In this document: one piece after another, positions 22,867 through 42,957 of the stretch | How positions within the stretch are numbered: position 1 is the first letter of the stretch | Layout: every line of letters begins with the position of its first letter | From: a virus | Virus record (IMG/VR): IMGVR_UViG_3300050343_000199 | Coordinates: 62,001 to 126,000 of that record | Reading direction: 5' to 3' (one strand) | DNA: 64,000 nt | Program-made: the position numbers and the translations under genes | Notes under the pieces: generated by a model | What the model was told of the DNA's origin: nothing | The model's database searches: none | The model's input: the letters and a program-made list of their open reading frames with translations, nothing else

Positions 22867-22891
22867 TTTGGTGGACAGTTCAGCAACTGGT

Positions 22892-23086
22892 TCATTCAAA
22901 AACTGGTATGATTCGTTCACGCATCTCTTTCAACTGCTGTGGATCATTACCATACTCACCCATATGCATGAAAACACAATCAATGTATCGTAAATTATTA
23001 CGTTCAGCATCAAGGACAAAGGAATCACAATACCTTAAGATATCTGGAGGTACTTCTAAATTCTGATAGTCGTAATCAATAGTCAT
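22892..23086 (-). CDS. Hypothetical protein
   Basis: 64 residues from ATG 23086, overlapping the upstream stop by 11 nt. PPDILRYCDSFVLDAERNNL and PQQLKEMRERIIPVF helices. No family recognised. Confidence 0.55.
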   Translation of the reverse strand: MTIDYDYQNLEVPPDILRYCDSFVLDAERNNLRYIDCVFMHMGEYGNDPQQLKEMRERIIPVFE

Positions 23087-23678
23087 AGTTAATAAGTTTT
23101 TTGTAAAATGGATCACATATTTTGTATTGACCTTTAATGTGACTCTTACCAATAAGATCTTTATTGATATAGTGTACAGTCAATGATGGATGATCAATCC
23201 AGTCTTTATATGTCCATGATGCAGATCGTACATATTGATTGCCTCCCTCTTCACATTTCTTTCGTATTTGTGAATCAAGTTTGTGTGCTACTGCATCAAT
23301 AGTAAACTCTACAACGTAATGTAGTATGCCATGAACAAACAAACCATGAATAATAGGAAGATTGACATCAGTATCCTTGTCATATCTTGCTCTAGTATAA
23401 TCATTGAAGCACCCGCTACCATTAGTAGTCTTATTAGTGTAGTTCTTTGGTTTAATCTCTTTCTCTATGTTAGTCCCGATTTGGATTGCATCTCTGCCAA
23501 GCTTACCAGGAAGAGGGTTACATCCAGCAACACGAGCAACAATATGCTCACGCAAAGTGGAACTATTAGAGTCGTTGATGTAGACTTCATACAATTCCTC
23601 AAAAAGATCACATTCTGTTTGTGTGGGATGACCTAGTGCTCGGTCAGTTGCAAGTGAAATTAATTGCTCGGAGAACAT
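23076..23678 (-). CDS. Hypothetical protein
   Basis: 200 residues from ATG 23678, 22 nt after a CATACT -10; the earlier in-frame GTG lies in the promoter. Contains HIVARVAGCNPLPGKLGRDA, a glycine/asparagine linker (TNKTTNGSGCFNDYTRARYD), NLPIIHGLFVHGILHYVVEF and a C-terminal WTYKDWIDHPS. No family recognised, but the His-rich hydrophobic stretch and conserved-looking Arg/Asp suggest an enzyme or structural protein. Confidence 0.6.
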   Translation of the reverse strand: MFSEQLISLATDRALGHPTQTECDLFEELYEVYINDSNSSTLREHIVARVAGCNPLPGKLGRDAIQIGTNIEKEIKPKNYTNKTTNGSGCFNDYTRARYDKDTDVNLPIIHGLFVHGILHYVVEFTIDAVAHKLDSQIRKKCEEGGNQYVRSASWTYKDWIDHPSLTVHYINKDLIGKSHIKGQYKICDPFYKKLINYDY

Positions 23679-23700
23679 TGGATTGATGGACAACTCACAT

Positions 23701-23729
23701 AGTATGGCACATATGTTTGAGTATGTCAA
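23701..23729 (-). promoter_or_regulatory. Sigma70-type promoter TTGACA-17-CATACT
   Basis: -35 TTGACA at 23724-23729, 17-nt spacer, -10 CATACT at 23701-23706, 22-nt leader to ATG 23678. Confidence 0.65.
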
Positions 23730-23746
23730 GGTCACTGTGACAGTTA

Positions 23747-23974
23747 TTAATCGTCCACTGCATCAACCGACTCAATATCGCACACCGGCACTTCATGCTC
23801 ACCACCAATCATGTACCAGTGCATTAACTGTCCATGATATTCGGGATGTGCAACGTATTGTGTAGTATACTCACGTTCACCACAATACAACAACTCACTC
23901 TCAGGAATACAATGCTCTTTCAACATTGCTTGCAGTTGCATATGCTGCAATTCTACTTTTGATGGTACTTTCAT
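23747..23974 (-). CDS. Hypothetical protein
   Basis: 75 residues. VELQHMQLQAMLKEHCIPES, GEREYTTQYVAHPEYHGQLM and an acidic end. No family recognised. Overlaps the 3' end of the chaperone gene by 74 nt. Confidence 0.5.
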   Translation of the reverse strand: MKVPSKVELQHMQLQAMLKEHCIPESELLYCGEREYTTQYVAHPEYHGQLMHWYMIGGEHEVPVCDIESVDAVDD

Positions 23975-24731
23975 AATAATTAGTCTCAGTAAGAGATTTA
24001 ATTGTAAGATAGTTTGCTATTTTGTCTCTGAATAACTTAAGATAATGTCTAGTAGTAGGCATGAACTGATTATCTGTTGTAAGATATTCTACATCAGGAA
24101 AATCTACTGAGTATACTTTACTATAAAACTCAGGTGAGATTGGAAATTTAACAATATCTGCATTTGTAGAGAACTCAGTCTGATCTGTTATATCTCTCAA
24201 TTTTTGTCTATATGTAATATATTTTGCTTTATCAGCATCATTTAATTGAGAGTCTGGTGCTAGTGCCCAATCAGTCTCACTTAATAGAAAATTGCGGGCA
24301 AGTCTAATAGTGAGAGGTGATACTGAAGATGTTTTAGCATACATTCTAGCGAGTTCTTGATTGAACTCTTGATCTTCTAATGAATCAATCAGATAATATG
24401 ATTCAACTAATTTATCTTTTACTGCTTTACCTTCATCAGTTGAAAGTTGCTCCATTTCATAGTCAACCCATTCAAATTTAGAGGTAGAAAAATTCTTTCT
24501 ATATCTTCTACGTTTAGCATAATATGTGTCATTGGTAAACCAATTAAACAAGATCAACTTATCCTTATCACTATCCCATAAAGGATAAAGAAAAGGAAGC
24601 AGGGTATCTTTCCAATAACTCTCAGGAATTACCTTTGCCGTACCATTGTATGTAATTTCCTGATTTACCGTGTCAAGTTGTACTTGTAACACTGGTATGT
24701 CAGCCGAGTTCTGCGTTGACATGTTGTTCAA
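23901..24731 (-). CDS. Tail-fibre assembly chaperone-like protein
   Basis: 276 residues from TTG 24731, which has GGAG at 7-nt spacing; ATG 24722 is the alternative but is too far from it. Around residues 150-200, LSETDWALAPDSQLNDADKA followed by YITYRQKLRDITDQ is the signature of phage tail-assembly chaperones (W..lpD..l.....W..YRq.LR). Such proteins help fibres fold or trimerise. Its place right after the last fibre gene supports this. The C-terminal part overlaps the next gene. Confidence 0.65.
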   Translation of the reverse strand: MNNMSTQNSADIPVLQVQLDTVNQEITYNGTAKVIPESYWKDTLLPFLYPLWDSDKDKLILFNWFTNDTYYAKRRRYRKNFSTSKFEWVDYEMEQLSTDEGKAVKDKLVESYYLIDSLEDQEFNQELARMYAKTSSVSPLTIRLARNFLLSETDWALAPDSQLNDADKAKYITYRQKLRDITDQTEFSTNADIVKFPISPEFYSKVYSVDFPDVEYLTTDNQFMPTTRHYLKLFRDKIANYLTIKSLTETNYYESTIKSRIAAYATASNVERALYS

Positions 24732-24746
24732 TTATAGTCTCCAATA

Positions 24747-24753
24747 TATTTAG
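24747..24753 (-). promoter_or_regulatory. T4-type late promoter CTAAATA
   Basis: CTAAATA overlaps the stop of the glycine-rich fibre gene, 16 nt upstream of the TTG start with GGAG in between. Confidence 0.5.
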
Positions 24754-27700
24754 AAAGCTTTGATAAGGTACTTACATAATCTGTACGGTACAAGCAGAGG
24801 AATATTAAAATCTGGATCTAATGATACGATTGGTTCAACTTTAGTAGTTGACTTCATCGTAAGTTTAGCATCACTAGCATTTAATCCAGAACTATATGTA
24901 ATTCCAGGTCCAGTTTGACCTTGTACTGTATATGTAAGACTATCAACAGCAGGTTTTGAGATAGCACCAGCAGTTGGTACAAAAATTAATTCGGTTACTT
25001 TCTCTTTCCAATAAATTACCTCAGAAATACCATAATGGTCAGTGTTATCTGCATTATCATTAGCACTATTAGCATTTGCTCGTTGCTGTTCAAATTTAAT
25101 CTTAACACCATCTTGTTTTGCTGATGCTGGTAATGCAACACTATAAGTATACCATTTTGTATTTCCTCCAGTACCATCCCACGTACTATTAATTGATGGA
25201 ACAGTTCCAATTAAAGGATCCGTTCTACTGGCGTTTGGATTGATAATAGTATCAATCAAATTCCATGTTTCAGATCCATTCAATTGATAGTAAACTTTCA
25301 GTGTTTCTTCTGGTTTATTACCACCATTTGAATCGTTTCCTCTTGCTGCTTTTATGGAAATATAATTTACTTGAGTGCAATCTGTTGGTTTAACTACAGC
25401 AAATCTCGTTTTACTAGTCTTTCCATTTACTCCACCAAATTTCAAGAATGACTCAATTTGACTAGAACTATTTGGAATTAAAGTTAAATCTGAAACTATT
25501 CCAGCATTTTGATCTACTTGTGCAGCTATAATAGTTCCAGCAGAACTACCATTTAAGACATATGCATATGGTTGTTCAGTATATCCACTACCTCCACTAG
25601 TTAGAGAAACATTATTTACTGTGCCATTTGCAGAAGTGGTACATGTAGCAGTTGCACCTGTTCCACCACCGCCTATGATCTTAACAATTGGTGTTTCAGT
25701 TGGTTTCTTGAAGTTTCCAGTAACACCACTACCATCACCGAAATCATAAACATTTACATCCCAATCATCTGCATCTGCAGATCCAGATTCAAATACATCA
25801 CCAATACTAACAGTTGTTGTTCCACCTTCCCATCCGGTAACAACTCCTAATCCAACTTTAACATATCCTGTGCCACCATTAGCAACACCACCACCAGGTG
25901 ATGATCCTCCAGATCCAACAGTGATTGCAGCAGATGCAGGATTACCTAATGCATCCCATCCAGTAACACCATTCCATACTCCAGCACCACCGCCACCACC
26001 GCCACCAGGTGTCCAATAATCATTATTATATGTTATGTTTAAAGATGCATAACCATTTCCACTAGATCCTTGAGATTGTTGAGCAGCAGTAAAATAATCG
26101 TTTCTAAGAGAACTTGTTCCTGTCATTCCTCCGCCACCACCTTGGTGACCACCGTTACCACCAGGAGCACCGCCCGGACCACCAGGAGCACCACCACCAC
26201 TACCACCAGGAGTAGTAAATCCATTACGGGCAGCACCGCCACCGCCGCCGCCTCCACCGCCGCCAACGCAACCGTAATTACCACCTTTACCACCTGATCC
26301 AGGTCCTAGTGCTTGAGATCCTTGCTGCAATCCCACAGGAGATAATCCATTCTGTCCCGGTCCACCATCGTTACCGTCAGCACCAGCACCGCCACCGCCG
26401 CCAGCACCAATTACTAACTGAGATCCTCGGTATAACAATGTGGCACCGCCGCCGCCTGCTCCACCTTTGTTACCATCACCTGTACCACCCTGCTTTCCAC
26501 TAGCACCATTAGAATTACTACCACCACTACCAGGACTATTACCACCGTTGCTACCTTTACTGCCAATACTTACTGACCAACCCTGTTGAGTAAAATTACT
26601 AAGTCCATTAGATTTTATTTCTGCATTTATTAGAACTCCTCTATGACCAGATCTGCTATTATTAGCATTACCTCCTGCACCACCAGAAAGACTAAATCTA
26701 GCTGTCAGAATACCAGCAATTCCATTTAAACCACTAAATGAACCATTACTAGTCTTAGTTTGACTATATGTGCCACTTTGTCCTGTTACTTCTTTGTTTA
26801 CACCATTAGTTCCCACACCATATGGTGTAAATCCTAATAATCCACCAATACCGCCACCATTTGGGTTATTTGGATAATCTACTTTAGGAAATCCATTATT
26901 TGCTACTCCATTTTGTCCATCAGTTCCATCTAGACCATTAAACTTACCGCCGCCTTTAAGTCCTAATTTCTGAGTTCCACCTTTATCTCCACCAGAACCA
27001 CCAGACTGTCCAGATGCTGCTCCACCCTTTTCGCCACCGTCAGCAACTAAATGTACTCCACTACCATCACCAATTTTAAGACTACTAGCAGTTCCGTTGT
27101 TTCCTGCTGAAGTTCCATTAGCACCAGAACCACCACCACCAACTACAAGATATTGTAAAGATTCTGGAGATCCTGTAACTGTACTAAAATCAATAGAATA
27201 ACTACCAGGATTAGTAAATTCCCATACATTGGTATAATTAATAATTGGAGTTCCACCAGTAACGATATTTCTACCGCCAACTACAGAATTGGATGATAAT
27301 GTGTATGATATTGGATTAGGAATAAAAGTTTGAAACTCCCAAGATCCTGCACCTTGAGCACCAGATGCTAGATATGCTTGGTCTGGACCAGCAGCAGTAT
27401 CATCTTTTAAAGTACCTGCTCCACCTGCTCCACCATATGCATCAAACGCATCATAAGTTGCAACTGTGTTATCATCGTTTGGTCTTCTAAGTAATCCATG
27501 TTTATGAGTAAAGACTTGACCAGTTGTAGGATACCATCTTTGAACTCTACCCCTACCTTCTTTATAATCTTGTAAATATCTATCTCCACTCCCCTCTCTC
27601 ACCCATTGTGTTTGACCAGGAACACTATGAAAAACACTATGACTATGCTGAAAAACTCCAGGTAATTTAGAATCCTTCATTGTAACAGTTACATCTTGAC

Positions 27701-28538
27701 TACCAATAATAGTACATCCAGTAGTCTCAACAACTGCATCATATCCGCTAGTAGTAATTCTACCCAAGGAAAAGTATTCATCTTGAGATTCTTTTGCAAA
27801 ATACCACTGACCACCAGTAATACCTACACCAAGAGACGAATTTCCAATATTTGGAGAATTATTACCAAATACTGAGTTATTACCTACAATTTTTCTTGCT
27901 TTAGTATCAGGAACTGCAAATGTACCTAAATTAGTAACTCCCCACCAATCTAAAACGTTTGCAGTAGTAATCCTAGAAATACCTCCAGTATCAGAATCAA
28001 TTCTAACTTCTGCTGTAGCACCAGATCCACCGCCACCACTTATAGTTACCGTTGGAGGATTATAAGGATCATATCCTTCACCTGCAATTAGAGTAGTAAT
28101 AGTAGTTATTTTACCTGTGTTATCGTATTGTGCAGATGCTGTTGCTTGTATTCCACCAGCAGCAGGTGCTCCTATAGTAACAGTAGGAGTACTGGTATAT
28201 CCAGCACCAAAATTTATAAGATCAATTCCTTGACTAGATCTTCCACCATATTGATTTCCAATAATAGAATACAATACAGGATAATCAGAAATCTGATACT
28301 CAGATCCATCACAATATAGATATCCTTCGTGAGTATATGCCGGATCATCTCCTGTTATATAAGCATTACCGGTTTTTTCACTTAAATTGCCATAATTTAT
28401 ATCTCCAGATTTAACATAATTATGATCAAAACTATTAGCAGTGCTTTTTAAATTAGGCACAATAGATCCGATTGGTGTAGTATCCACCAACATATCGGTC
28501 AGGAATCCCTGTCTTGCGTTTCTATAACTTTGTGACAT
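24750..28538 (-). CDS. Glycine-rich tail fibre / adhesin with collar domain
   Basis: 1262 residues. The N-terminal 110 residues hold a phage tail-collar motif (GYLYCDGSEYQISDYPVLYS). Next are GxGYxxxPxVxI beta repeats, a His-rich segment that resembles the metal-binding collar region (FQHSHSVFHSVPG, FTHKHGLLRRP), then a glycine-rich block of about 430 residues (roughly 470-900) with polyglycine runs up to eight, and a C-terminal beta domain. Glycine-rich loops form the receptor-binding tips of T4-like fibres (gp38-type). Inferred host-range determinant. Confidence 0.8.
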   Translation of the reverse strand: MSQSYRNARQGFLTDMLVDTTPIGSIVPNLKSTANSFDHNYVKSGDINYGNLSEKTGNAYITGDDPAYTHEGYLYCDGSEYQISDYPVLYSIIGNQYGGRSSQGIDLINFGAGYTSTPTVTIGAPAAGGIQATASAQYDNTGKITTITTLIAGEGYDPYNPPTVTISGGGGSGATAEVRIDSDTGGISRITTANVLDWWGVTNLGTFAVPDTKARKIVGNNSVFGNNSPNIGNSSLGVGITGGQWYFAKESQDEYFSLGRITTSGYDAVVETTGCTIIGSQDVTVTMKDSKLPGVFQHSHSVFHSVPGQTQWVREGSGDRYLQDYKEGRGRVQRWYPTTGQVFTHKHGLLRRPNDDNTVATYDAFDAYGGAGGAGTLKDDTAAGPDQAYLASGAQGAGSWEFQTFIPNPISYTLSSNSVVGGRNIVTGGTPIINYTNVWEFTNPGSYSIDFSTVTGSPESLQYLVVGGGGSGANGTSAGNNGTASSLKIGDGSGVHLVADGGEKGGAASGQSGGSGGDKGGTQKLGLKGGGKFNGLDGTDGQNGVANNGFPKVDYPNNPNGGGIGGLLGFTPYGVGTNGVNKEVTGQSGTYSQTKTSNGSFSGLNGIAGILTARFSLSGGAGGNANNSRSGHRGVLINAEIKSNGLSNFTQQGWSVSIGSKGSNGGNSPGSGGSNSNGASGKQGGTGDGNKGGAGGGGATLLYRGSQLVIGAGGGGGAGADGNDGGPGQNGLSPVGLQQGSQALGPGSGGKGGNYGCVGGGGGGGGGGAARNGFTTPGGSGGGAPGGPGGAPGGNGGHQGGGGGMTGTSSLRNDYFTAAQQSQGSSGNGYASLNITYNNDYWTPGGGGGGGAGVWNGVTGWDALGNPASAAITVGSGGSSPGGGVANGGTGYVKVGLGVVTGWEGGTTTVSIGDVFESGSADADDWDVNVYDFGDGSGVTGNFKKPTETPIVKIIGGGGTGATATCTTSANGTVNNVSLTSGGSGYTEQPYAYVLNGSSAGTIIAAQVDQNAGIVSDLTLIPNSSSQIESFLKFGGVNGKTSKTRFAVVKPTDCTQVNYISIKAARGNDSNGGNKPEETLKVYYQLNGSETWNLIDTIINPNASRTDPLIGTVPSINSTWDGTGGNTKWYTYSVALPASAKQDGVKIKFEQQRANANSANDNADNTDHYGISEVIYWKEKVTELIFVPTAGAISKPAVDSLTYTVQGQTGPGITYSSGLNASDAKLTMKSTTKVEPIVSLDPDFNIPLLVPYRLCKYLIKAF

Positions 28539-28543
28539 TACTA

Positions 28544-29914
28544 TTAAATCTTAATTAAATATTCCATAACAATATATGGTGATGTAGCAGCATCAATAGA
28601 AACTGAGTTATCAGTTCCTATATCCATACGTGTCACCAAATTTTCAGGTGGCACTTCAATTGCATTTGTTTTAACTTTATAACTATGGTCGCCTTTATCC
28701 AAATAAATGCGATGATTATGTCTAGTTGGATCTTCTCCAGCTGTAATTGCTAAGTCAATAGTATCTAGAGTTTCATTATCAACATCGGTAATAGCAAATT
28801 GAGATTTATGTTCTTGATTAGATTGCATTGGAACAACATCATGCAAACTAACATCATTAAAATCTAATGGGACTCCAGGATATCCAGATTCATATGTAAC
28901 CGGAATGTCATTATCAAAATCATCTGCTTCATCACCACCACCACGGTATACACATATACCAAGAAGTTCCGTAAAGTTAGCATATTCTGCAGTATCATTT
29001 CCGTTAGGTGATCCTTCTGCTTTCCAACCATCAAGAGTAAATTCTTCGTTATTCAAACATCCATAAGTATATTCAGTCTGACCATATCCAAAAATACAAT
29101 ATCCATAATAAAGAGTTTCTTGTACTCCCTGATCAGTAATAGCGGAATCTTTCCACTTATCAATTGCCTTACAAACATTCTGACCACTTCCAGGTGGTTG
29201 ACCAGAATCATTATTATATCTAGTTGCATCTAACCAATCTTGAATAGGTATAGTTGATGCATTTCTACGACCAGTAGTACCACCATTTGGATTAGGTTCG
29301 TCTCCTGAAGGTTCGTTTGTTTGTAAATTTCTTGCTCGCACAGCACTATGAAAGTGCATATGTCCGGCAACTGCATTCTCTTCAACACCTTCAATCTCGG
29401 TATAATGTGTATCTCCAGCATATTCCCAAGATGGTCTTCCTCTAAGAGGAATTTCTTGACTTGGTACTGTTATAGTACCAGAATATGTAATGGTTACCGT
29501 ATCACCGATTGCAGATGTTACTTCAATTCCAATACCAGATCTACTTACTAAGTTACCCAAAGCATTTGGTAATCTAATATTATTATAGGATCCAGCATTG
29601 GCACCTGATGTTGGTTCTGGATATTTTGAACCAAGATCAGGGACCATAAATTGTGTATCAGATAAGACATCAAATACTGTCCCGTCAGGATTTCTCCTAA
29701 GATATTTACACGAATCACCTGTTCCTAAAATTGCTGCTAATGCAGGATAATCAGAGGCAAAATATTTTGTTCCATCACATTTAAGATATCCAGCAGGCAA
29801 CCTAGATTTATTAAGTGCAGTACTGGGATCACCTTGATATTCTAACGGCCAAATAATAACTTGACCTGATAAATTACCATATTTAGATCTTTCTTTGGCG
29901 TAAAATGCAGGCAT
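28544..29914 (-). CDS. Tail fibre protein with collar domain
   Basis: 456 residues. The collar motif GYLKCDGTKYFASDYPALAAIL is at about residue 42, followed by FMVPDLGSKYPEP and a His-containing stretch AVAGHMHFHSAVR. The C-terminal end (RMDIGTDNSVSIDAATSPYI, then VMEYLIKI) is shared in style with the two flanking fibre genes. Structural, probably a short or distal fibre subunit. Overlaps the 562-residue fibre gene by 1 nt. Confidence 0.75.
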   Translation of the reverse strand: MPAFYAKERSKYGNLSGQVIIWPLEYQGDPSTALNKSRLPAGYLKCDGTKYFASDYPALAAILGTGDSCKYLRRNPDGTVFDVLSDTQFMVPDLGSKYPEPTSGANAGSYNNIRLPNALGNLVSRSGIGIEVTSAIGDTVTITYSGTITVPSQEIPLRGRPSWEYAGDTHYTEIEGVEENAVAGHMHFHSAVRARNLQTNEPSGDEPNPNGGTTGRRNASTIPIQDWLDATRYNNDSGQPPGSGQNVCKAIDKWKDSAITDQGVQETLYYGYCIFGYGQTEYTYGCLNNEEFTLDGWKAEGSPNGNDTAEYANFTELLGICVYRGGGDEADDFDNDIPVTYESGYPGVPLDFNDVSLHDVVPMQSNQEHKSQFAITDVDNETLDTIDLAITAGEDPTRHNHRIYLDKGDHSYKVKTNAIEVPPENLVTRMDIGTDNSVSIDAATSPYIVMEYLIKI

Positions 29915-31602
29915 CAGTATGCTTTGATTATAAACGTCATTGTTACATTAGGTTGAGTGGTATCAACCGTAATATTTAGGGCATCTTCTAAACTATCAGC
30001 AGTTAAAGAAGATCCATCTGCATCATTTGCAGTATGAGAAGGAGGACTAGCGATAGATCCTATACCCTGAGCAATTTCAAAACTACCGTGATTATGTGCT
30101 CGGTATATTTGTTCTTTAGGATCTTTAGCAGTATTAGTTGTATTTAATGTAGTAGGATATGTGGCATATTTAAATGCTATATCAATAGTTCCACCAGATT
30201 TTGCCGGTTGACTCATAGTAATTTCATAAATTGGTGCTGCAGCAGTACCTATATTCTCAACAATTTGGACCATTGTTCCTTCACGGAAGTAATAATATTT
30301 ACTATCAACTAGAACAGGTGTCATGTACATTAAAGGAGTAATTTTATCATATTGATACCAACTTTCACCTCCAGAACTATATGAACTTTTGATATTTGTA
30401 CTAGGAGGTAGTGTAATTTTATTAGAATCTTGAGTAAGAGTTACTCCAGAGACTGTAAATACAGGAGAAGTTTCGGGGTTATCTTCTAGTCCATCACCTC
30501 TAATAGGAGCACCAGTATCATATCCAAAGAAATTTGACCTTCCTCTTAGACTCATTGGGGGTGGAAACATCCCAGTATGGCAAGGTGTTTTATGTTCATC
30601 AGTAGGAACGTAACTAAAGGTATCAGTATATCCTCGTTCAAATACAACTTGATCATATGCTAAGGCTTCATGTCCTGTTCCACCACCGTCTTGATTACGA
30701 TCAGTAGTTGCCCATTCATCTTCACCAGCAGGAATATAACCCCAATAATCTTTTCCTGAACTATCTTTTACAAATTCTTGATATCCTTCACAACGTGGAA
30801 GTGTATTTTCATGTGTTTGATCACCATAGTATGTTATATTAGTAGCACCATTGTTCCACTGAGTTGGTTCTGCTTCTTTAAGAGCACAGTTAATAGGACC
30901 TCTAGTTTCACTACACTGATTAGATGTAATGTCACCGGTCATATCAATACCCCTATCAGTACGAAATACCATAGGACCAGAAGCATTTGGGTTTACTGAT
31001 GGTATATTTTCACTATGTGAATGTGATGGTGTATGATTAATTCCTAATTTTCTATTCAATGTATGTACTGTCTCCAAAAAGTCAGGAGATCCCATAGTAA
31101 TATTATCAAATTTAAAATATAAATTTCCGGATAAATTTAACGTAAAATCAATGTCAGTTGTTGCTTGATATGTAGTGTTTATCAACGCATTTTCACCATA
31201 AGAATCAATTAGATCACCTAATTTATCTCCTTGTGTATTATATACAGAATTTAATGGGTCAGTTTGACCCATCTTATATTTGTCAAGTGTGAGATAATCT
31301 TTTTCAACATCTATCAAAACTTTAGCAGATAGATTTGGAAGTCTAAAAGTTGCATCTGTACCATAATATGGAAATTCTGGATGATTTCCCGACACATCTG
31401 TCATATCACCACCATAAGAATCACCTAAAGATGAAGCTAATAATGGATAATCAGAAGCAGTTAATGTTTGACCATTGCAAGTAATCCACCCTTTGGGGAT
31501 ATTAGATTCTAAAAATCCACTACCCCCGTCTCCTCCCCAAGGCATGATAGTGCCAACTTTGGCAGCTCTCATAGTTTTAATTGAATCGTATCTTACTGTC
31601 AT
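29914..31602 (-). CDS. Tail fibre protein with collar domain
   Basis: 562 residues. Begins with GTIMPWGGDGGSGFLESNIP, then the collar motif GWITCNGQTLTASDYPLLAS and FRLPNLSAKVLID. His clusters (NHTPSHSHSENIPS; YRAHNHGSFEI) recall the metal-coordinating regions of fibre tips. Ends VTMTFIIKAY, parallel to the ends of the other two collar fibres, which suggests paralogous origin. Confidence 0.75.
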   Translation of the reverse strand: MTVRYDSIKTMRAAKVGTIMPWGGDGGSGFLESNIPKGWITCNGQTLTASDYPLLASSLGDSYGGDMTDVSGNHPEFPYYGTDATFRLPNLSAKVLIDVEKDYLTLDKYKMGQTDPLNSVYNTQGDKLGDLIDSYGENALINTTYQATTDIDFTLNLSGNLYFKFDNITMGSPDFLETVHTLNRKLGINHTPSHSHSENIPSVNPNASGPMVFRTDRGIDMTGDITSNQCSETRGPINCALKEAEPTQWNNGATNITYYGDQTHENTLPRCEGYQEFVKDSSGKDYWGYIPAGEDEWATTDRNQDGGGTGHEALAYDQVVFERGYTDTFSYVPTDEHKTPCHTGMFPPPMSLRGRSNFFGYDTGAPIRGDGLEDNPETSPVFTVSGVTLTQDSNKITLPPSTNIKSSYSSGGESWYQYDKITPLMYMTPVLVDSKYYYFREGTMVQIVENIGTAAAPIYEITMSQPAKSGGTIDIAFKYATYPTTLNTTNTAKDPKEQIYRAHNHGSFEIAQGIGSIASPPSHTANDADGSSLTADSLEDALNITVDTTQPNVTMTFIIKAY

Positions 31603-31612
31603 TGTTTTTAGA

Positions 31613-32968
31613 TCAGAGTTCCATCAACCACCAACCACGAAGAGAAGGTGGAATTGTTCTGGCATTAGAGGATCCTTCAATGTCAACAGGACCAGCATAA
31701 ACTAAACCAAAAGCAGCATTTCTAGATTGAACTACAAGTTCTCCAGAATCCCATGCCGTTGATAGTGTTTGACCAGCACCAGCACCAACTCTAGATCCAG
31801 TAGTATCACCTTGAATTGCTGTTTGAACTGCTCCATCTTTCAATGCTCTAATAATTAAACTTGTGTTATAAGTTAGATTTCCGCTAAGTTCCGTAAATCT
31901 AATCATATCGCCAGTTTGAGCATCATTTGGTAAGTACAAGACCATATTACTACCACTAGAAGTATTAACCAAGTAGTTATTATTAACTTCAAGTGGATTA
32001 TCTTGCTGTTGACCAATACCAGTGGTAGGATCAAAATCAAGATATGTATGTCTTCTACCACCATTACCTGTCCAATATTTCTCAATACCAAACGAATCAA
32101 TAGCGTTGTTTTGATAAATCTTGAAGTCTTTCGGACCATCACTACCACCAATACCTGCAGAACCCATATTATCAATATGGAATACTACATCAGATGCATT
32201 TTCAGTAATCAGTAATCTACCAGCTTGATAGAATGTTTCACCCATCTGAAGACTGCCAGTTCTTCCCTGTACACTAAATGAAGGTACAGATGAACAAATA
32301 CCGTTCATCTGGCAATCATCCCAGTAAACTCTAAAATCACCGAAGATATTAGCAGAACCCTTCAGGGTCATGCCATTAGTCTTATTGATAGGATCTTCAA
32401 TAGATCCATCTCCAGAGTGACCATCGTCATTTGCAATTGACAATACTAGAGTTTTACTATCAGAACCATACATTCTAAATGCACCACCATAGATGGTAGT
32501 ATCATCATAGACACTAAGTTCGCCACCATTATATAAGTCATAATATGGTGTTGTTGCAGTATTTGGTTCTCTAATACTCTTAGACATCTTGACTGCATAA
32601 ACTGCATCAAGAGAACCATCAACACTATCAGGAACAAAGAATTCACTACCAATCCTGACATAAGTTGGATAATCTAGTTTAGGTGAAATTAGATCTCCAT
32701 TACGAAGTCTAATCTCTAATCTAACATCGCTAGTATTCGGACTACGAGCCTTAAGGGCAGTTGCACGAGCAGATTGAGTTGCAGGAATGTCATCTAATAG
32801 AACTGTTGTTCTAGGAGCACCAACTAATTTGACAACATTTACACCTGCTTGGAATGCCTGAGCTGTCGTTCCTTCACGTCCTCTACCACCAGAATTATAA
32901 GTAGAATTACTTGATGTTGGTAGAATTAATCCACCAGTATTTGTATCTGTGCGTGGTGTATCAGTTAT
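31613..32968 (-). CDS. C-terminal part of the giant tail-fibre protein, no ATG start (frame split)
   Basis: Continuous coding sequence of 451 codons with no ATG, GTG or TTG until codon 128. It begins at the stop of the 3330-residue gene, where ATA overlaps that stop (ATAA). The reading (TDTPRTDTNTGGLILPTSSN and onward, then MSKSIREPN) is clearly protein and structural in style (SFSVQGRTGSLQMGETFYQA). Either it starts at the ATA, or it is made by -1 frameshifting from the upstream gene, or a one-base deletion has split one original gene of about 3780 codons. Confidence 0.7.
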   Translation of the reverse strand: MTDTPRTDTNTGGLILPTSSNSTYNSGGRGREGTTAQAFQAGVNVVKLVGAPRTTVLLDDIPATQSARATALKARSPNTSDVRLEIRLRNGDLISPKLDYPTYVRIGSEFFVPDSVDGSLDAVYAVKMSKSIREPNTATTPYYDLYNGGELSVYDDTTIYGGAFRMYGSDSKTLVLSIANDDGHSGDGSIEDPINKTNGMTLKGSANIFGDFRVYWDDCQMNGICSSVPSFSVQGRTGSLQMGETFYQAGRLLITENASDVVFHIDNMGSAGIGGSDGPKDFKIYQNNAIDSFGIEKYWTGNGGRRHTYLDFDPTTGIGQQQDNPLEVNNNYLVNTSSGSNMVLYLPNDAQTGDMIRFTELSGNLTYNTSLIIRALKDGAVQTAIQGDTTGSRVGAGAGQTLSTAWDSGELVVQSRNAAFGLVYAGPVDIEGSSNARTIPPSLRGWWLMEL

Positions 32969-35900
32969 CTGAATCCGTTAATAGTGGTTTTATTAGAATC
33001 AATGAATACATTACCAGTTACAGAATTAATTTCAAATACGGTTGATTCTGTAGAAGTATCACATCCATTCTTAACTCTAAATGATTTGGCAACTTGATCA
33101 AGTAAGGTCTTAACTTTAAATATTTCACCTGTATCATCAACACCATCACCAGAAGGAGTGCCATCATCGCGAGAAATAATAACATAGTCTCCAATACTGA
33201 TGTCTCCACCAAATTGTGCTAGGTAAATATCTTCTTCAGTTCCAGAGTTGTCAAGATTGGTGGTAATCCAAGTAGATTCAAACTGAACAGTACATTTGTA
33301 GATTGCAGCAGTATCGTTATGATCAGATCTAATTTCAGTAAATGTTCCAAATGGAAGTCTCTCAACTATAAGATAATATGGAGCAACGTTGATTCTTGGT
33401 AAAGAAACGATTTTAACAAATTCGGGATGTTTATTACCTGTAATAGCAGTATCAACTAGAAGAATATCATTCTCGGTAAAATACTGAGCATCTTCAGCAT
33501 CAACTGGTTTATTCTTAATTGGTAAGTAATACTGATTACCACTCAATGCAGAAAGAACTTGAGGTTCAACATTTGGAGTACCACCAATTGTAGTAATTTC
33601 ATTCTGGAATACTGTACCACCCCAATCACCACTACCAGAAGTATCTACAGCATTGTATCTCGCATCGGATACAGCAACTCTAGCAACTGTAATAAGATCA
33701 ACATTAGACTTGAATAGATTATTTCCGAGAATACCGCTGGTATGAGTAATCTTACTAGAACCAATTTGTCCTCTATCTGCTGTGAAAGAGTAAGATGCAA
33801 ATCCACCACACAGGGTCATATCAGAATTAAATCTAGCAGTAGAATCAACAATTAAATTGTTTCTAATTCTAGTACTTCCACCCTGACCACCGACTGTAAT
33901 ATCAGAAGCATTAGTTGCAAAATCAAGTTTTGACGTGCTAGAATTACCAGAGAAAAATTCTACAGTGCCTGCAGTAGAAGAAAGTTTAACCGTATCATCA
34001 AGACCTCTTCTTGTACCTAGTTGAATATCACCAGAAACTTTAAGAGCCTTTGTGTCAATTTGAGTAAACGATAAAGATTCGTTGTTGTTATAAGCACCAC
34101 CGATAGTAATCTTAGAAATATTGCTATTAAGATCTGGTGTATTACCAATCCAAATGTTGCTATGCAGAGATTTATTACCAACATAAACATATTGATCTTG
34201 TGTTGTGGTGTTGAGTAGATTTAAAGTTTTTACAGAATTACCAACGTTAAGTGTGCCAGTAAAAGCAGTATCAGTGACTAGATTAAATGTACCACTTGTC
34301 TGAGATGTTCTGATCTCAGCAGTTGTACCGTCGTTGCCATTGACTTCAATGTCATGCTCAAAACGAGCATCATCAGTAAATCTAGATGTACCATCAACAA
34401 CCAGTGCTCTGTCTAGTTCAGCATTAGTTACATTAATACCAACACGACCATTATTTGTAGTTGCAACTCTAAGTGTTGCTTCATTTGCTGGTGTTGCACT
34501 GTCGCCACCAACTAGAAGTGCATAATCAGAAGTTGTTTCAGTTCTATTAGCGAACGCAGGATTACTTAGATAATCAGAAATTATCTTACCACTGATAAAT
34601 GCATTACCAACAACATCAAGGTTTGCACGAGGAGCAGTATCAACATCAACAAATGCAGTCATATATGCATCATGTGCAGATCTTGCGACTGTGTTAATAC
34701 CAAGTTTGTATTGACCAATGTCACTGGTATCAGTTCTAATTGTTTCAGAACCAATAACTCCAAATTCTTTCCAAGAAGAATTAGAGAACTCTAATCTTAC
34801 ATCATTTCCAAGTGCTACCTCACTAGACCAAAGTCTTGGATTGTCATTTGCAACGTTAGATCTGTTTTCAATAATAGCAATTTGACAAGTATTAGCACTG
34901 GCAGTAAATCCATTACCAATGATTTGCCAGAGACCATTAAATCCAGGGTCACTATAGTTAGAAATTCTGATCTGGGATCCGCTGGTAACACCAACTTGAT
35001 CATTAGATAAGTTGTTACCCCAAGTAATGGTGATAACAGTGCTTCCATTCATCTGGAAGTTAAGGAGATTTGCATTAACAACTCGCGCAAAGAAGTTTGC
35101 GTAAATCCATCCAAGAGACCCAGTACCACCAACTTCAGATCCTTTGAGAAGAATATCTCCAGATAATGGAACTTCAGACCCGTACAATACATTTTGGGTA
35201 GTATTAATTGCAGTTCCAAGACCTGTGCTATACACGGGACTTTGATTAGGTGTAATATTTGACCCAATGCTTCCAACTACATGATTTTGAATTTTATAAC
35301 CTTGTGCAGCACCATTTGAACCACGTGGATTAAACTGGAATATTGAGGCAGCAACTCGGTTTCTTGCAATTACAATGTCACCATTTGTATCTTGATTGAG
35401 GAATTGATTAGTCTTATCAAGTGTTGCATCATCACCATCACTAGGTGATACGTTAGAAACTACAGTAAATGCATAATCTCTAACTCTACCCAGAACATTA
35501 ATAGTAACAGGAGAGTTAAATGTACTCATGCGATCTTGAGCATCACCACCATTAACAGTGATGTACTCGTTAAATGTTACAGGAGTATCAAAAGTAGTAA
35601 CAAGACTACCGATATCTTCAGTGTCATCATCAGAATCAACTAATGCAGCAGATTCCAAGAATACTTCTTCACCAGTAATAGCATCAATCTTACGGTTACC
35701 AATGTATAGGTCACCGTTAGAGTTTAGACCAGTGTAGAATACTAAACCACCATTTTGCTTCTTAGACTGTGCATAGAAGTCTTGGGTTGGGGTTAGAACG
35801 ATCTCCTGACGGGCAGGAAGACCGGTTGAATAGTTACCAGGACCGAATCCAAGGTACTCAAAGGTATGGTTACCTGCACGAGCAATAGAGGGTCTTCTAA

Positions 35901-38900
35901 GTTCAACATATAGTCTCTGATCAGACATTACAGTGCTGTCACCAGCAATAGGAATGCGACGATCTTCAGATCCAGATGCAGCATTACCCTTCTGCGCTCT
36001 TAATCTATTATCAATGCTAGAATTAACTTGAGTATAAGTATTCTGCAACAGTGCTTGCTGAGTCGTAAAGTCAAGCATTGCTTCACGAGTCATTGAACCC
36101 TTAAAGTCGTTAACTCTAACAAGACCGTGAGTATAGTTATCTGCAGCAGAATATGTTGCAGGAACATCAAGTTGGGTGTTATCTAACTGCTTGAACCAAA
36201 GAGGATCGTTCTTATAGTTCAGTGGATATAGTTTGCTGATTGGTTGAGAGAACTTAAAGTTACGGAAGTTACCCTGATTACCAGCACCAGTTGGGAATGG
36301 AGAGATGTTACCACGAACAGCAGTTAGATAGTAGATACCATCTTGCTGACCGTAAATACGGCGTTGAACCTCTTCAACATCAAAGATGTAGAAGGTATCA
36401 TCAAGTTCCCCAGTATCAGTTACAGACTCTACGTAGAACTGAACGTTTGCATCGTCAGTAATGATATCACCAGGAGTGATAGTATAAACTTTGGATCCAA
36501 GTTGTCTGTAGTAATATTCTGGATAGTTCTTACGAATAAGATCCTTAATGTATAGTGACTTACCGAAGTCTTCATCAGTCAGTAGGTCAGCAAATACTGC
36601 ACCTTGAGCAAATCGGATATTTTCAAAGACTGAATAATCAATCTTACCAGAAATACCCTTGAGAATCAAATACCAGTCACTTGTATTTGGAACATTGAGT
36701 GCTGCATGTATGAATGCATAACCCGAAGAATTGCCATACCAATCAACTCTGTTTGCAGAATTTGATTGAGTCTTGTTAGCAACGAAAGAACCACCCTGAG
36801 GTGCAGTAACCTTAACTGTAGTAAACGTTTCATTCAACAATCCAACGTTTGTAATACCTAGGTCAAATACAGTTACTTCTAATAGTTCGTCACCACTTTG
36901 TGCATCATTAAAGTATCTACCAGACTGAATAGTCATTGAGACATAATTAGAAGTCTCAATACTCTTAGCGTACTGAGTTGTGCCTACAACGTCTCTCTTA
37001 TATGGATCATATGCAGTCTCTTCATTTAGATTATTACTAAGGAAATCTGCCTTAGTGAAACCAATAACTTCATTTGCTTGTACTGGGTTGAAGAACCTTG
37101 CTTTTGTTACAGAACCAGATACTGGTTTAAGTACAAGTTTTTGTGGCAGAAGTTTTCTAGTTTCATCCTTACGAACTTTAATGGTAAATCCATTAATAGG
37201 ATCACGAACCGCTTGTAAGTACTCAGGAATAACATAACGAAGACGATAGATACGATCATCTTTATCTCTTTCATCCTTGATCCTTTCAAACCAAGCATCG
37301 TTAGTCTTATCTTGACCAGAGATATCGCTATAAGTATTCTCATGCAATCTAGTTAAGATGCTTTCATCATACCTAGGATCATTAACATTAGAAGAATGAT
37401 CCTCAACCTGCATATACCACTTACCATAAATTGCTGGTGTAGTATTTGGATTTAAATATGACGGATCATATTTTACAGGTGATTCACGCTTATCCGCAAA
37501 TGTTGAGAAGTCATAAGAACCAGTCTGGAATGTAATTGCATTAATATCAGCAATTGCATCTGACTTTGTTGCGTGAATAGTGAAAGTTTTTTCAGTTTGA
37601 TATCTTGCCCAGAAGAATTTATCTCCACGAATTCTACCATTACTATCAGAGATAGAACTATCTCCAGCATAGTTAGAACCTACAAGAGGAACACTTCCAC
37701 CCTCATTTGCTCTAAAGAATACCTGATGACCAGAAATATCTGCAAAAGGAACATCAAAGATGTGTGGTACATCAGTACGAATACTAGAGTTAGTATTTGC
37801 CTCTAGGATACAAGAGTATTGATGCAAATCATAATTATCATCTAATACAAATTGATATACATCAATTTCAATATCAGGATCAATAGACTCTACTTCAGCA
37901 GAGTGAATATAGATACCTGCTGCAGCATTTTCTTTGCTGTTTGCAAGCATAATCTTTGTTTGATCTGTTCCGTCAAAGACTGAAGTTCCTTCATAAGGTT
38001 CTGGTTTTGTCTTTCTTGCAGGAGCAATTACATAATACTCTTCGTTGGTTTCAAAACCATTTGGGAGTCTAATCTTTCTCTTGTCAACATCAACATAAGA
38101 GTTGGTTACACTATCATAACGAGGACGTGGAACCAATCTAATTGGTGTACCAGTTTCTAGGTTATGTGGGTTGGCACCAGCACCTGTTCTAAGAGTCCAA
38201 GTTGTTGCTCTAGAAGCAAGTTGTGTGGTAAGTTGAGAAGGTTCTACTCTAGGAATAGTATTCAGACCAGTCTGAATAATCGTTGAGATATTAGTAAAGA
38301 ACTGACGAATAGCAGAAGCTTGATCAGCACACTCTGGATAAGAGGTATGTTGAGTAATAGTATCGTCAACAGTTGGTGAGAACTCAGATGTATATACACC
38401 TGAAGTTAAAGTGAAGTACAGGTAAGAGTTTGTGGTGGTTGCGTTTGCATTTACCGATGGACCAAATGCAAGTCCGAGTGGAGACTCAACTCTATCAACT
38501 GACTGTAAGTATCCAGGATTTGCAATTGTATTATTAACAATCTGGAACAGAGTAGTAACAGCAGATGCTACATTCTGACAAGATCCGTTAGATACAGTTC
38601 TAAGAACAGATGAAAGTGATGTTGGGGTTGATACTGCACTAGAAATAATATTAAAGAGTGTAGTAATAGTTGTTCTTGCATCTTCACACGATCCAACAGA
38701 TAAAGTTCTTGCAACATTAGCAAGAGAAGATGGTGTGTTGATAGCAACAGTAACTAGATCAGTGAAAGTTGTCAGAGATGATTTAACATCATTACACGAT
38801 GCATTAGATAAAGTACGTGTAACACCATATAGTAGATTACTAGAAGTAATGGTATTAGTAAGTATTTGAATCAACGTGGTGATCGTAGCTGCCTGTGAAG

Positions 38901-41900
38901 CACAAACAGGGGATCCATCAGCAGTAATTGTTAGGTCTTTAGATTGAGTTAGAGTTGTATGACCACCAACAGTTACATTTTCATTTCTCATGACCTCAAT
39001 CATGAGAGCACGTGCTTCAGTAAACGCGAAAATTGTTTCTGTTTCTTCACCAGCGACATGTGCCCCAGTAGCATAGAAGTTAGCAGCATCCCATACTCTG
39101 TCATTACCGCCATATGCTAAGTTATGAGCAACAACATCTACAACGTCCTTGATGTCATCAAGACAATCATTACTGTTTCCAGTTGGAACTGTAAATGTAG
39201 GGAAGTTTGCTAACATTCTACCCAAAGCAATCTCAGAAATAAAGTCTTTGTTTGCTAGAATTAAGTTTCTTGCATCTGCAGACTTATTATCTACAGGTGT
39301 AGGAGCATCAACTGTAATAGTTGTGTCTTTTGTCTGAGTTAAACCATGACTACCGACAAGGAGCATGGTTTCATTTCTCATTGCTTGGACCATTAGGTCT
39401 CTAGCATATTCAAGAGCTTGTGTAGTCTGTACTTCTTCACCGGCAACATGAGCACCCTGAACATACAGGTTTGCCATGTCCCAGACTCTATCATTTCCAC
39501 CAAATGCTAAGTTATAAGAAACTTCCTGAACGAAATCATCAATGTCATCAATACAATCTTGAGCGTTGCCAGTTGGAGGAACAAACCCAGGATTCTCAGC
39601 GATCATTCTTTCGTATGCTTCAGCAGCAATCACTGCTTTATTGGAAAGAATTAAGTTGCGAGCATCACCATTACGATCAATTACTGGATCTGGTGTATTA
39701 TATGTAATTGATGTATCATAGGTTTGAGTTAAACCATGAGACCCTACCGAAAGGACCTTTTGGTTTCTCATAACTTGAGCAGCCATTTCTTTTGCTTGCT
39801 CAAAAATATGAAGAGTTTGTGCTTCTTCACCTGCTACATGAGCACCTTTAACATAAGAATAGGCAGCATCCCAAGATTTATCGTTACCACCGTATGCTAA
39901 GTTATCAGCAACTGCTTCTAGAATATCAATAACATCATCAATACAATCCTGTGGATTACCTGTAGGAGTAGTAAATGAAGGGTATACTGTAAGCATTCTT
40001 GCATATGCTTCAGTTGCGATCAAAGTTTTGTTAGCAAGAATTAGATTACGAGCATCACCATAACGATCTTTGACTAGTTCAGGAGCAACATAGGTGATAG
40101 TAGTATCTTTCTGTTGTGATAAACCATGAGATCCAAAGATGAATACATCTTCATTACGCATGACTTGGATGCACATATCTCTAGCATATGTAAATGCTTT
40201 GATAGTCTCATCTTCTTCGCCAGCAACATGAGCGCCGGTTTCATACAAGTATGCTGCATCATAAGTATCAGCATTACCACCAAAAGCAGTATTTTCTGCA
40301 ACTGCTTCAATTACATCAACAATATCATCCTTACAATCCTGTGGATTACCTGTAGGAGTAACAAATCCAGGGAAGTCAAGGACCATGCGATCATATGCTT
40401 CAGCAGCAATGAATGCTTTATTGAGAAGGATTAAATCTTTTGCGTCTCCGTAACGATCAGATACCAGTTTCTTCTCACTGTATACTGCTTTTTGACCCAA
40501 CTCAATTGTAGTTGCATCAATAACACGCTTAACATAAGTGTTATCTGGGATGGCAGGAGAATTAGGACGTGAAGCTCCAGCATTTAACTTACCATCAGTA
40601 AACTCAGAAGGATCGTAATCTGCAACGATCATACCCTGAGAAATACCAGAAGTATCGCCAATGTTTACAATAGAAGATGCTGCTGTAGTAGAAACACCTT
40701 GACGCAGATACGAGAAATTACGCATCGCTGCGATTGCTAAATCTCTCGCGTAATTATATCCTTCTAAAGTTTCTGATAGTTCTCCAGTGATATAAGAGAG
40801 ATTATTTCCAACATAATAAGACTCTGCTGCCTGGATAGTATTAATATTACCACCAAGACGAAGATCTTGTACTGTAGCATCAATCAGATATCCAATATCG
40901 CGACGACATTTCTCAATGCTGATGCCAGATTTAACTACAAGATTTGGATACTTTCCAGTGATAAATCCATATGCTTCAGCAGCAATGAAGCTCTTATTTT
41001 CTTCAATTCTATCTGCTGCATCAAGATCCTTATTATTAAGTACAAGATTGCTAGGATTAAGAATAGATGCAGTTGCAGTAAATTTCTTAAATCCATTTGG
41101 TGATAGAGTAGCATCAAAAATGTTACTAGCACCAGCACTTCTTGGAGTTAGTTTTACATATAGTTTTTCATCACTTCTTGCACCAATTCTGAATCCATCA
41201 ATTGATGCTGCAGGTCTCTTGGCAGGATCATATGCTTCATCATCACCAAAGAAAATTTTACTGTGATTATTAGGATCATTAGATGCTTTTACATCAATAG
41301 TATAGTAAGCATTCTTCTTAGTATTTCCTTGTGTTTCAGGGATAGTTTTTGGAGGAACAATATCCGTGATGTAACCACCCTTATCTTGATTAAAGGCAAA
41401 TCCTTTAAAACCAATAGCATGAAGTGATGTGTTACCGAAGTTAGAGTTAGAGTTGGTGATAGACATATCACCACCACTTTCCATTAGGAAGTGATCAGCA
41501 AAACCAACAGCGAAGATAGAAACGTTCTGAATAAATGCGTCATCTGATGCACGAACGTGGAAGTTTCTCCAGTCATCCTTCCAATATGCATCACCTTTAG
41601 TGTGATATGGAACAGTCGCAAATGCATCAGTTAATGATGCCTGATTAAACGTGTTAGAATACTCATCATAACGAATGAATGCTCTGTCATCTTTCTGCAA
41701 TGAAACGCCCGTATACTGAGCGATAACCATGGATTTAAATCCAGTTGCCTTCAGTCCATTTGCCCAGATTCCGCAAATACCCCAGGTAGAGCGAATAGAG
41801 CAGTTAAAGACATACGGAGACGCGGATTCAACGGAATCAACTTCCGCTTTAACTACCGCATTTGCACTTAATCCACTTTGAGCTGTATATGATGTTCCGC

Positions 41901-42957
41901 TAACTAAACTTACACTGGTTCCAAGAGCTGCAACAGTTCCAGGAATTTTATAAGTAAACTTCCTACCATCTACTAGATCAATATCTTCTACGGGGAAGGT
42001 GCCGTTTAATTGATCATCTAACCCATTGTTTTCAATAGAAACAAACTGGTTCTTGAAATAACCATGATTTACTTTAGTGGTAATATTGACACTGATTGTT
42101 CCTGCAGGAGAGGAATCTACACACTCAATACTTTCAATAGAGCGAATGTCTGATAGAGGACCAACAATTCTAGTTTCTTGGATTCTTTCAGTAAATTCAC
42201 CGGGATCGTCAATTGTTGGTTGATACTGAGAAAATGCCTTAGCAATCTTCTGATAGTATAGACCTAATTCTTCTTTGTCTGCATATTCAAATACAGTTAG
42301 TTTATGGTGAGAATAGTTAGGAATTGCTAACTGATCCCAGTATCCATTCTGATAATATACCTTACCTACACCTTCGTTCTTATTGTAGAGAGGAGAAGAA
42401 GGTTCTAGATCACCATCTTTGATCGTAAACTGCCAGAAATAACATGCACCAGTTACATTAAAGATAGCAGAACGCTTCTCTAACCTGTCTGCAGGATCTG
42501 GGACATATAAAGGACGGACAACAGTCCTACGAAGATCATAACCTACAAGAGATGAACCTCTAGGTAGAATTGCACCACCTTCAGTGTTATTGAATCTATA
42601 AAGGATATTATTTGGATCTGAGATATCAAGATTAGAGTTATCTTCCCACTCATTTAATGCTTGATTGAATGCAAATGCATCAATACCCGTAGTTCCAACA
42701 ATGCCAGGACGGTTATCAATATAATGATTACCAGGCATCAACATGATCGTGAACTGGTCAAAACGATCATTATCGGGACCAGGAAGGTATGAATACCTTG
42801 CAATCTCTAAGAATGCTCTTTGAATAGACTTAAATGGTCTAATTGGGGAATTTCCCCTGTTGTTCAACTCATCCGAAGCATTGAAATCATCGGGGGAGAC
42901 ATACAAATACTTACCAGTTTTACTACTAATAAGATTGTCAAGTCTAGTCAAAGCCAT
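32965..42957 (-). CDS. Giant tail-fibre / structural protein with tandem repeats
   Basis: 3330 residues from ATG 42957. The N-terminus (MALTRLDNLISSKTGKYLYV) resembles the adsorption-fibre start of cyanomyovirus structural giants. A beta-helix-like region follows. Residues about 655-1345 hold five copies of a roughly 130-residue helical module (consensus AEAY-R-M, P-GNPQDC-DDI, GGND--WDAA--Y--GAHVAGEE-E-, MRNE). Then come four to five copies of a 36-residue module (C---A-TTLF-I---I--P--L--V-RT-S-GS). The rest is beta-rich. Late promoter and tRNA-Asn precede it. Inferred long fibre or neck appendage. Confidence 0.8.
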   Translation of the reverse strand: MALTRLDNLISSKTGKYLYVSPDDFNASDELNNRGNSPIRPFKSIQRAFLEIARYSYLPGPDNDRFDQFTIMLMPGNHYIDNRPGIVGTTGIDAFAFNQALNEWEDNSNLDISDPNNILYRFNNTEGGAILPRGSSLVGYDLRRTVVRPLYVPDPADRLEKRSAIFNVTGACYFWQFTIKDGDLEPSSPLYNKNEGVGKVYYQNGYWDQLAIPNYSHHKLTVFEYADKEELGLYYQKIAKAFSQYQPTIDDPGEFTERIQETRIVGPLSDIRSIESIECVDSSPAGTISVNITTKVNHGYFKNQFVSIENNGLDDQLNGTFPVEDIDLVDGRKFTYKIPGTVAALGTSVSLVSGTSYTAQSGLSANAVVKAEVDSVESASPYVFNCSIRSTWGICGIWANGLKATGFKSMVIAQYTGVSLQKDDRAFIRYDEYSNTFNQASLTDAFATVPYHTKGDAYWKDDWRNFHVRASDDAFIQNVSIFAVGFADHFLMESGGDMSITNSNSNFGNTSLHAIGFKGFAFNQDKGGYITDIVPPKTIPETQGNTKKNAYYTIDVKASNDPNNHSKIFFGDDEAYDPAKRPAASIDGFRIGARSDEKLYVKLTPRSAGASNIFDATLSPNGFKKFTATASILNPSNLVLNNKDLDAADRIEENKSFIAAEAYGFITGKYPNLVVKSGISIEKCRRDIGYLIDATVQDLRLGGNINTIQAAESYYVGNNLSYITGELSETLEGYNYARDLAIAAMRNFSYLRQGVSTTAASSIVNIGDTSGISQGMIVADYDPSEFTDGKLNAGASRPNSPAIPDNTYVKRVIDATTIELGQKAVYSEKKLVSDRYGDAKDLILLNKAFIAAEAYDRMVLDFPGFVTPTGNPQDCKDDIVDVIEAVAENTAFGGNADTYDAAYLYETGAHVAGEEDETIKAFTYARDMCIQVMRNEDVFIFGSHGLSQQKDTTITYVAPELVKDRYGDARNLILANKTLIATEAYARMLTVYPSFTTPTGNPQDCIDDVIDILEAVADNLAYGGNDKSWDAAYSYVKGAHVAGEEAQTLHIFEQAKEMAAQVMRNQKVLSVGSHGLTQTYDTSITYNTPDPVIDRNGDARNLILSNKAVIAAEAYERMIAENPGFVPPTGNAQDCIDDIDDFVQEVSYNLAFGGNDRVWDMANLYVQGAHVAGEEVQTTQALEYARDLMVQAMRNETMLLVGSHGLTQTKDTTITVDAPTPVDNKSADARNLILANKDFISEIALGRMLANFPTFTVPTGNSNDCLDDIKDVVDVVAHNLAYGGNDRVWDAANFYATGAHVAGEETETIFAFTEARALMIEVMRNENVTVGGHTTLTQSKDLTITADGSPVCASQAATITTLIQILTNTITSSNLLYGVTRTLSNASCNDVKSSLTTFTDLVTVAINTPSSLANVARTLSVGSCEDARTTITTLFNIISSAVSTPTSLSSVLRTVSNGSCQNVASAVTTLFQIVNNTIANPGYLQSVDRVESPLGLAFGPSVNANATTTNSYLYFTLTSGVYTSEFSPTVDDTITQHTSYPECADQASAIRQFFTNISTIIQTGLNTIPRVEPSQLTTQLASRATTWTLRTGAGANPHNLETGTPIRLVPRPRYDSVTNSYVDVDKRKIRLPNGFETNEEYYVIAPARKTKPEPYEGTSVFDGTDQTKIMLANSKENAAAGIYIHSAEVESIDPDIEIDVYQFVLDDNYDLHQYSCILEANTNSSIRTDVPHIFDVPFADISGHQVFFRANEGGSVPLVGSNYAGDSSISDSNGRIRGDKFFWARYQTEKTFTIHATKSDAIADINAITFQTGSYDFSTFADKRESPVKYDPSYLNPNTTPAIYGKWYMQVEDHSSNVNDPRYDESILTRLHENTYSDISGQDKTNDAWFERIKDERDKDDRIYRLRYVIPEYLQAVRDPINGFTIKVRKDETRKLLPQKLVLKPVSGSVTKARFFNPVQANEVIGFTKADFLSNNLNEETAYDPYKRDVVGTTQYAKSIETSNYVSMTIQSGRYFNDAQSGDELLEVTVFDLGITNVGLLNETFTTVKVTAPQGGSFVANKTQSNSANRVDWYGNSSGYAFIHAALNVPNTSDWYLILKGISGKIDYSVFENIRFAQGAVFADLLTDEDFGKSLYIKDLIRKNYPEYYYRQLGSKVYTITPGDIITDDANVQFYVESVTDTGELDDTFYIFDVEEVQRRIYGQQDGIYYLTAVRGNISPFPTGAGNQGNFRNFKFSQPISKLYPLNYKNDPLWFKQLDNTQLDVPATYSAADNYTHGLVRVNDFKGSMTREAMLDFTTQQALLQNTYTQVNSSIDNRLRAQKGNAASGSEDRRIPIAGDSTVMSDQRLYVELRRPSIARAGNHTFEYLGFGPGNYSTGLPARQEIVLTPTQDFYAQSKKQNGGLVFYTGLNSNGDLYIGNRKIDAITGEEVFLESAALVDSDDDTEDIGSLVTTFDTPVTFNEYITVNGGDAQDRMSTFNSPVTINVLGRVRDYAFTVVSNVSPSDGDDATLDKTNQFLNQDTNGDIVIARNRVAASIFQFNPRGSNGAAQGYKIQNHVVGSIGSNITPNQSPVYSTGLGTAINTTQNVLYGSEVPLSGDILLKGSEVGGTGSLGWIYANFFARVVNANLLNFQMNGSTVITITWGNNLSNDQVGVTSGSQIRISNYSDPGFNGLWQIIGNGFTASANTCQIAIIENRSNVANDNPRLWSSEVALGNDVRLEFSNSSWKEFGVIGSETIRTDTSDIGQYKLGINTVARSAHDAYMTAFVDVDTAPRANLDVVGNAFISGKIISDYLSNPAFANRTETTSDYALLVGGDSATPANEATLRVATTNNGRVGINVTNAELDRALVVDGTSRFTDDARFEHDIEVNGNDGTTAEIRTSQTSGTFNLVTDTAFTGTLNVGNSVKTLNLLNTTTQDQYVYVGNKSLHSNIWIGNTPDLNSNISKITIGGAYNNNESLSFTQIDTKALKVSGDIQLGTRRGLDDTVKLSSTAGTVEFFSGNSSTSKLDFATNASDITVGGQGGSTRIRNNLIVDSTARFNSDMTLCGGFASYSFTADRGQIGSSKITHTSGILGNNLFKSNVDLITVARVAVSDARYNAVDTSGSGDWGGTVFQNEITTIGGTPNVEPQVLSALSGNQYYLPIKNKPVDAEDAQYFTENDILLVDTAITGNKHPEFVKIVSLPRINVAPYYLIVERLPFGTFTEIRSDHNDTAAIYKCTVQFESTWITTNLDNSGTEEDIYLAQFGGDISIGDYVIISRDDGTPSGDGVDDTGEIFKVKTLLDQVAKSFRVKNGCDTSTESTVFEINSVTGNVFIDSNKTTINGFR
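38280..38920 (-). repeat. Tandem coding repeat, about 36 residues per unit
   Basis: Four to five successive units in the giant fibre protein, each starting with a conserved Cys (CASQAATITTLIQI, CNDVKSSLTTFTDL, CEDARTTITTLFNI, CQNVASAVTTLFQI, CADQASAIRQFFTN) and ending VxRTxSxGS or similar. Confidence 0.75.
38930..41010 (-). repeat. Tandem coding repeat, about 130 residues per unit
   Basis: Five units, beginning near 40990, 40440, 40055, 39665 and 39265. Each holds NK-FIAAEAY-RM, GNPQDC-DDI, GAHVAGEE and a final MRN. The first unit is the most diverged and is separated from the next by a short insert. Confidence 0.75.

Follow-up and report, generated by a model that had tools for sequence, protein, structure and literature searches.

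How does a cyanophage make its giant tail fibre when a stop codon breaks the gene and the coding sequence resumes in another frame that offers no standard start? This question is raised by a gene on the minus strand of a 64,000-nucleotide stretch of virus DNA, here called the window, which comprises bases 62001-126000 of the 192,818-base IMG/VR virus record IMGVR_UViG_3300050343_000199. The earlier note on this DNA had offered three answers: one gene that has lost a base through mutation or assembly error, a -1 shift that makes a fusion, or translation from an ATA overlapping the stop. Our comparison with related contigs points to a different origin of the break. The split gene is very probably a metagenome assembly chimera of co-existing strains, and both joins that frame the inserted segment would have been made in silico.

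The break as such was described correctly. The upstream open reading frame (ORF) runs from an ATG at 42957 (an in-frame TTG lies at 42966) to a TAA at 32967-32965, and the junction text ATTAACGGATTCAGATAACTG reads as it had been quoted. Downstream, the frame opens behind a stop at 32980 and closes at 31613, and the first ATG, GTG or TTG in it, an ATG at 32587, is preceded by about 129 open codons. Judged from its relatives, the downstream piece is plainly coding: its protein is 98.7% identical in amino acids to that of contig L002, where it forms the end of one open frame, and 51% identical over 453 amino acids to the end of gp224 of Synechococcus phage S-WAM2 (Kyanoviridae), an isolate and, among the annotated relatives found, the one closest in the fibre end. 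The profile of family phrog_4527 matches both ORFs. It covers most of the length of the upstream one (E = 0, 3833 bits; best stretch 1414-3284), and its C-terminal end, positions 3492-3730, matches the downstream one with 158 bits. Both pieces are thereby assigned to one protein family, but they do not form a single continuous reading frame, which is broken at 32974.

The origin of this break becomes apparent when the two sides of position 32974 are compared separately with related contigs, which fall into a type A (L044, L045 and L046 for the left arm, G003 for the far flank) and a type B (L002, also L003 and G007). In the left-arm search, L044, L045 and L046 match the window at 98.8-99.9% overall and at essentially 100% beside the join, with exact identity ending at 32974 over 2811 nt for L044 and 711 nt for both L045 and L046. 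From 36.5 kb to 32974 the window differs from L045/L046 by 0-2.8% per 250 nt, up to exactly 32974, and the last ~3.5 kb of the upstream ORF are 99.8-100% identical to these two contigs. Past this position, the three type-A contigs go on in frame into a different, intact fibre tip, the A copy continuing with ACTCTTAGTTTAAATGG. The right arm matches type B from L002:10001, and the preceding 394 nt (L002:9607-10000), or their type-A equivalent, are absent from the window; the same 394 nt are present in L003, and L005 has 393 with a 1-base overlap. Identity to L002 is ~99.6% at 42.6-38.7 kb, ~80% just before the join and ~99% just after it. Each side of the join consequently matches different contigs that are intact past it (L044/L045/L046 on the left; L002 and, more distantly, L003 on the right). 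Because the match to the type-A contigs ends at 32974 and the match to type B starts there, the join unites a left A gene part with a right B gene part out of register, and since 394 nt amount to 131 codons plus 1 nt, the fibre frame is broken. No copy of the left junction sequence was found in any related contig among 2.9 million viral contigs, a searched set outside which records very near the window's genome possibly lie. Contig L148 had appeared as a second carrier of the junction 18-mer; this was an unrelated chance match.

These findings bear directly on the proposal that a mutation or a sequencing error removed one base from a single gene. Adding one T would indeed make the frame continuous, but the reading that results, NGFQITDTP, is present in no relative; at the junction, the relatives of the left arm have no sequence register in common with those of the right arm, an additional 394 nt separate the two sides in the B copy, and the A copy goes on with its own tip sequence as given above. 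We therefore regard the loss of one base as having next to no probability. A deletion via repeats within the gene was likewise rejected: the left arm stems from another strain, the ends share only 1 nt, and no homology beyond one base was detected between the two ends of the missing 394-nt piece. Widespread indel errors of the kind found in raw long reads were not seen either, as our scan for frame breaks flagged, besides the fibre gene, only short L003 ORFs at ~22.5-22.9 kb.

The earlier note had proposed to align homologous cyanophage genes to see if they are continuous. They are. Among the 41 viral contigs that encode the downstream piece, 37 were examined, and in all 37 the downstream frame stays open across the junction for as far as the stored sequence reaches; several of them have an open frame of more than 3300 codons upstream of the junction, and a few begin so close to it that they carry little information (L021, for example, with just 2 codons before it). 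None of these 37 relatives has a separate second gene that starts at the junction, and gp224 of S-WAM2 is one coding sequence (CDS) of 4759 codons that spans the junction site. The suggestion of one gene broken by an assembly error was thus right in kind, whereas its specific form, a lost base, was not, as 394 nt of type B are absent at a join between types A and B.

The same comparison decides against a translational explanation, according to which a fusion or a second protein would arise by a programmed -1 frameshift or from a start at the ATA that overlaps the stop. The two frames are adjacent and the downstream one is coding, but the site (ATTAACGGATTCAGATAA) contains no slippery heptamer of the form X XXY YYZ, the junction is conserved in no relative, and each relative has one open frame. 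A conserved mechanism should leave a conserved site, and homologues without it count against both variants; as the junction sequence occurs in no other related contig searched, neither the -1 shift nor the ATA start finds support, and we attach hardly any credence to them. On the available evidence, neither the split gene and its missing start nor the two proposed mechanisms of translation (-1 shift, ATA start) belong to the biology of this phage.

Two features had escaped the earlier reading: the two-strain origin of the sequence on either side of 32974, and a second join at 23974 (Table 1). At this right join ~500 nt of type B are absent. The join falls exactly on the start codon of the following gene, from which types A and B are alike, and the window lacks the small gene that follows the tail assembly chaperone (116 amino acids in B, 118 in A; gp219 in S-WAM2). 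The truncation of the chaperone and the loss of the small gene are seen against L002, L003, G003 and S-WAM2. The right junction sequence, too, has no related copy among the 2.9 million contigs. With its A left arm, B segment and resumed A flank, the window is an A-B-A mosaic; its joins, which are blunt, do not keep the register, the B piece has lost both ends, and the gene is intact in relatives. The window holds ~9.0 kb at this place, versus 9.9 kb in an intact B contig and 10.6 kb in type A, and the missing ends of the type-B piece were not found elsewhere in the 192,818-base record.

Table 1. Positions of the joins, strain blocks and genes in the window.
Feature	Position	Strand	Remarks
Upstream giant tail-fibre gene part	32965..42957	-	ORF of 3330 codons; C-terminus truncated by the join
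Left join	32974..32975	-	A ends ...TATTAACGGA, B begins ATTCAG...; 1 nt shared
C-terminal part of type-B giant fibre gene	31613..32974	-	453 codons, out of frame, without own start codon
Type-B segment, ~9.0 kb between type-A flanks	23974..32974	-	98.1% to L002/G007 over 9004 nt
Short tail fibre gene, 562 aa	29914..31602	-	PF07484 collar domain; phrog_4591 short tail fibre
Virion structural protein, 456 aa	28544..29914	-	Position of S-WAM2 gp222; A/B pair 41.5% aa
Virion structural protein, 1262 aa	24750..28538	-	Position of S-WAM2 gp221; A/B pair 37% aa over C-terminal third
S-WAM2 gp220 homologue (tail assembly chaperone)	23901..24731	-	Truncated by the right join, ends out of frame
Right join	23974..23975	-	B ends ...GACTAATTA(TT), A resumes at ATGAAAGTACC, the start codon of the next gene
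Type-A flank resumed	14788..23974	-	99.8% to G003 over 9196 nt, 8 mismatches; type B 98.4% here

The most probable course of events would start from two close cyanophages, A and B, with near-identical backbones and different versions of a ~10 kb adsorption cassette. The B cassette contig, short of 394 nt on one side and ~500 nt on the other, would have been joined end to end with A flanks by an assembler, and the left join would have shifted the remainder of the fibre gene into another frame. The real viruses would have a single fibre gene, here ~3900 codons long. That the joins are blunt and out of register, that both ends of the B segment are trimmed, that both joins break conserved genes, and that neither junction is matched by a related contig in the set searched leads us to infer that they were made in silico and not in a virus (compare PMC11443906).

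Types A and B do exchange this cassette in nature. The cassette comprises the tip of the giant fibre, the short tail fibre, two structural proteins, the tail assembly chaperone and the small gene; within it, A and B proteins are 37-48% identical in amino acids, and the next gene is 99.6% identical. L003, which carries a B tip, and L047, which carries an A tip, are ~99-100% identical over ~6 kb of the fibre gene and diverge from ~L003:8400. In the stretch compared (L003:8400-11359 versus L047:6000-8964) the change is in register and both frames are open; the divergence begins ~1.3 kb upstream of the position of the window's join. The trimmed ends and broken genes of the window's B segment are unlike this natural, in-register exchange.

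This contrast matters for the possibility that the window represents real recombinant DNA, in which a trimmed B cassette was placed into an A genome by illegitimate recombination in a co-infected cell or as an amplification chimera, so that the virus would have a shortened fibre or be defective. The mosaic structure itself, the natural exchange of cassettes between these phages, and the exact coincidence of the right join with the start codon from which A and B are homologous again would all fit such an event. It would, however, need two independent out-of-register joins that both destroy conserved structural genes; the natural exchange seen between L003 and L047 is in register, and neither join is carried by any other related contig in the set searched. 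We consider a recombinant of this type unlikely. More doubtful still is a real circulating cyanophage with a trimmed B adsorption cassette non-homologously joined into an A genome, whose giant fibre would be tipless or consist of two polypeptides.

Some points also weigh against an assembly chimera. A De Bruijn assembler normally joins contigs where they overlap by a k-mer. The window's joins share only 0-2 nt, so that one has to suppose a further step, be it scaffolding, gap closing, consensus building or a chimeric read. Moreover, the verdict was drawn from assembled sequences, and an independent copy of a junction could be missed if the records nearest the window's genome lay outside our searches.

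Several local observations accompany these data. Over positions 42580-36500, the fibre gene follows the B contig L002 with 99.6% identity at 42.6-38.7 kb, is mixed at 38.7-36.5 kb, and is type A thereafter; either homologous recombination between strains or strain switching during assembly may account for this pattern. Near the second join, at 22521-22929, the window is matched in two frames by short L003 ORFs, which may reflect a small difference by an indel or some other local irregularity. In the giant fibre, residues 1099-1157 (39487-39663) carry a match to the Pfam Phycobilisome family PF00502 (2e-12 for the whole protein) in which no single stretch is significant alone; it overlies degenerate repeats of ~130 amino acids (..DARNLILANKxFIAxEAY..), and possibly only a helical pattern is held in common.

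With the break attributed to assembly, the real biology of this locus is ordinary: a ~10 kb adsorption cassette that includes the fibre tip differs between otherwise near-identical cyanophages. Cyanophages with ~99% identical backbones carry whole alternative cassettes of this kind, and assemblies can break there too. Start-less or frameshifted giant genes in uncultivated virus genomes should not be read as new translation mechanisms, and even a virus record of near-complete size can conceal joins between strains.

The window resembles the inter-strain chimeric contigs of viral metagenome assemblies in that blocks of two close strains stand in one contig. Its joins differ from a simple graph error, as they are blunt and lack the expected k-mer overlap, which suggests a scaffold, gap-closing or consensus step. 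Gp224 of S-WAM2 (YP_009324190.1, annotated as 'short tail fiber protein') is homologous along the gene, and the order downstream is alike, with a short tail fibre, two virion structural proteins and a tail assembly chaperone; its CDS, in contrast to the window, is uninterrupted and includes the region absent at the junction. Likewise, the window's two pieces match the family phrog_4527 (short tail fiber protein, 3730 profile positions), but in different frames and without most of the stretch between them. Finally, the A and B cassettes, at most putative determinants of host range, resemble the variable host-interaction genes of T4-like phages in having proteins far apart beside a 99%-identical flank.
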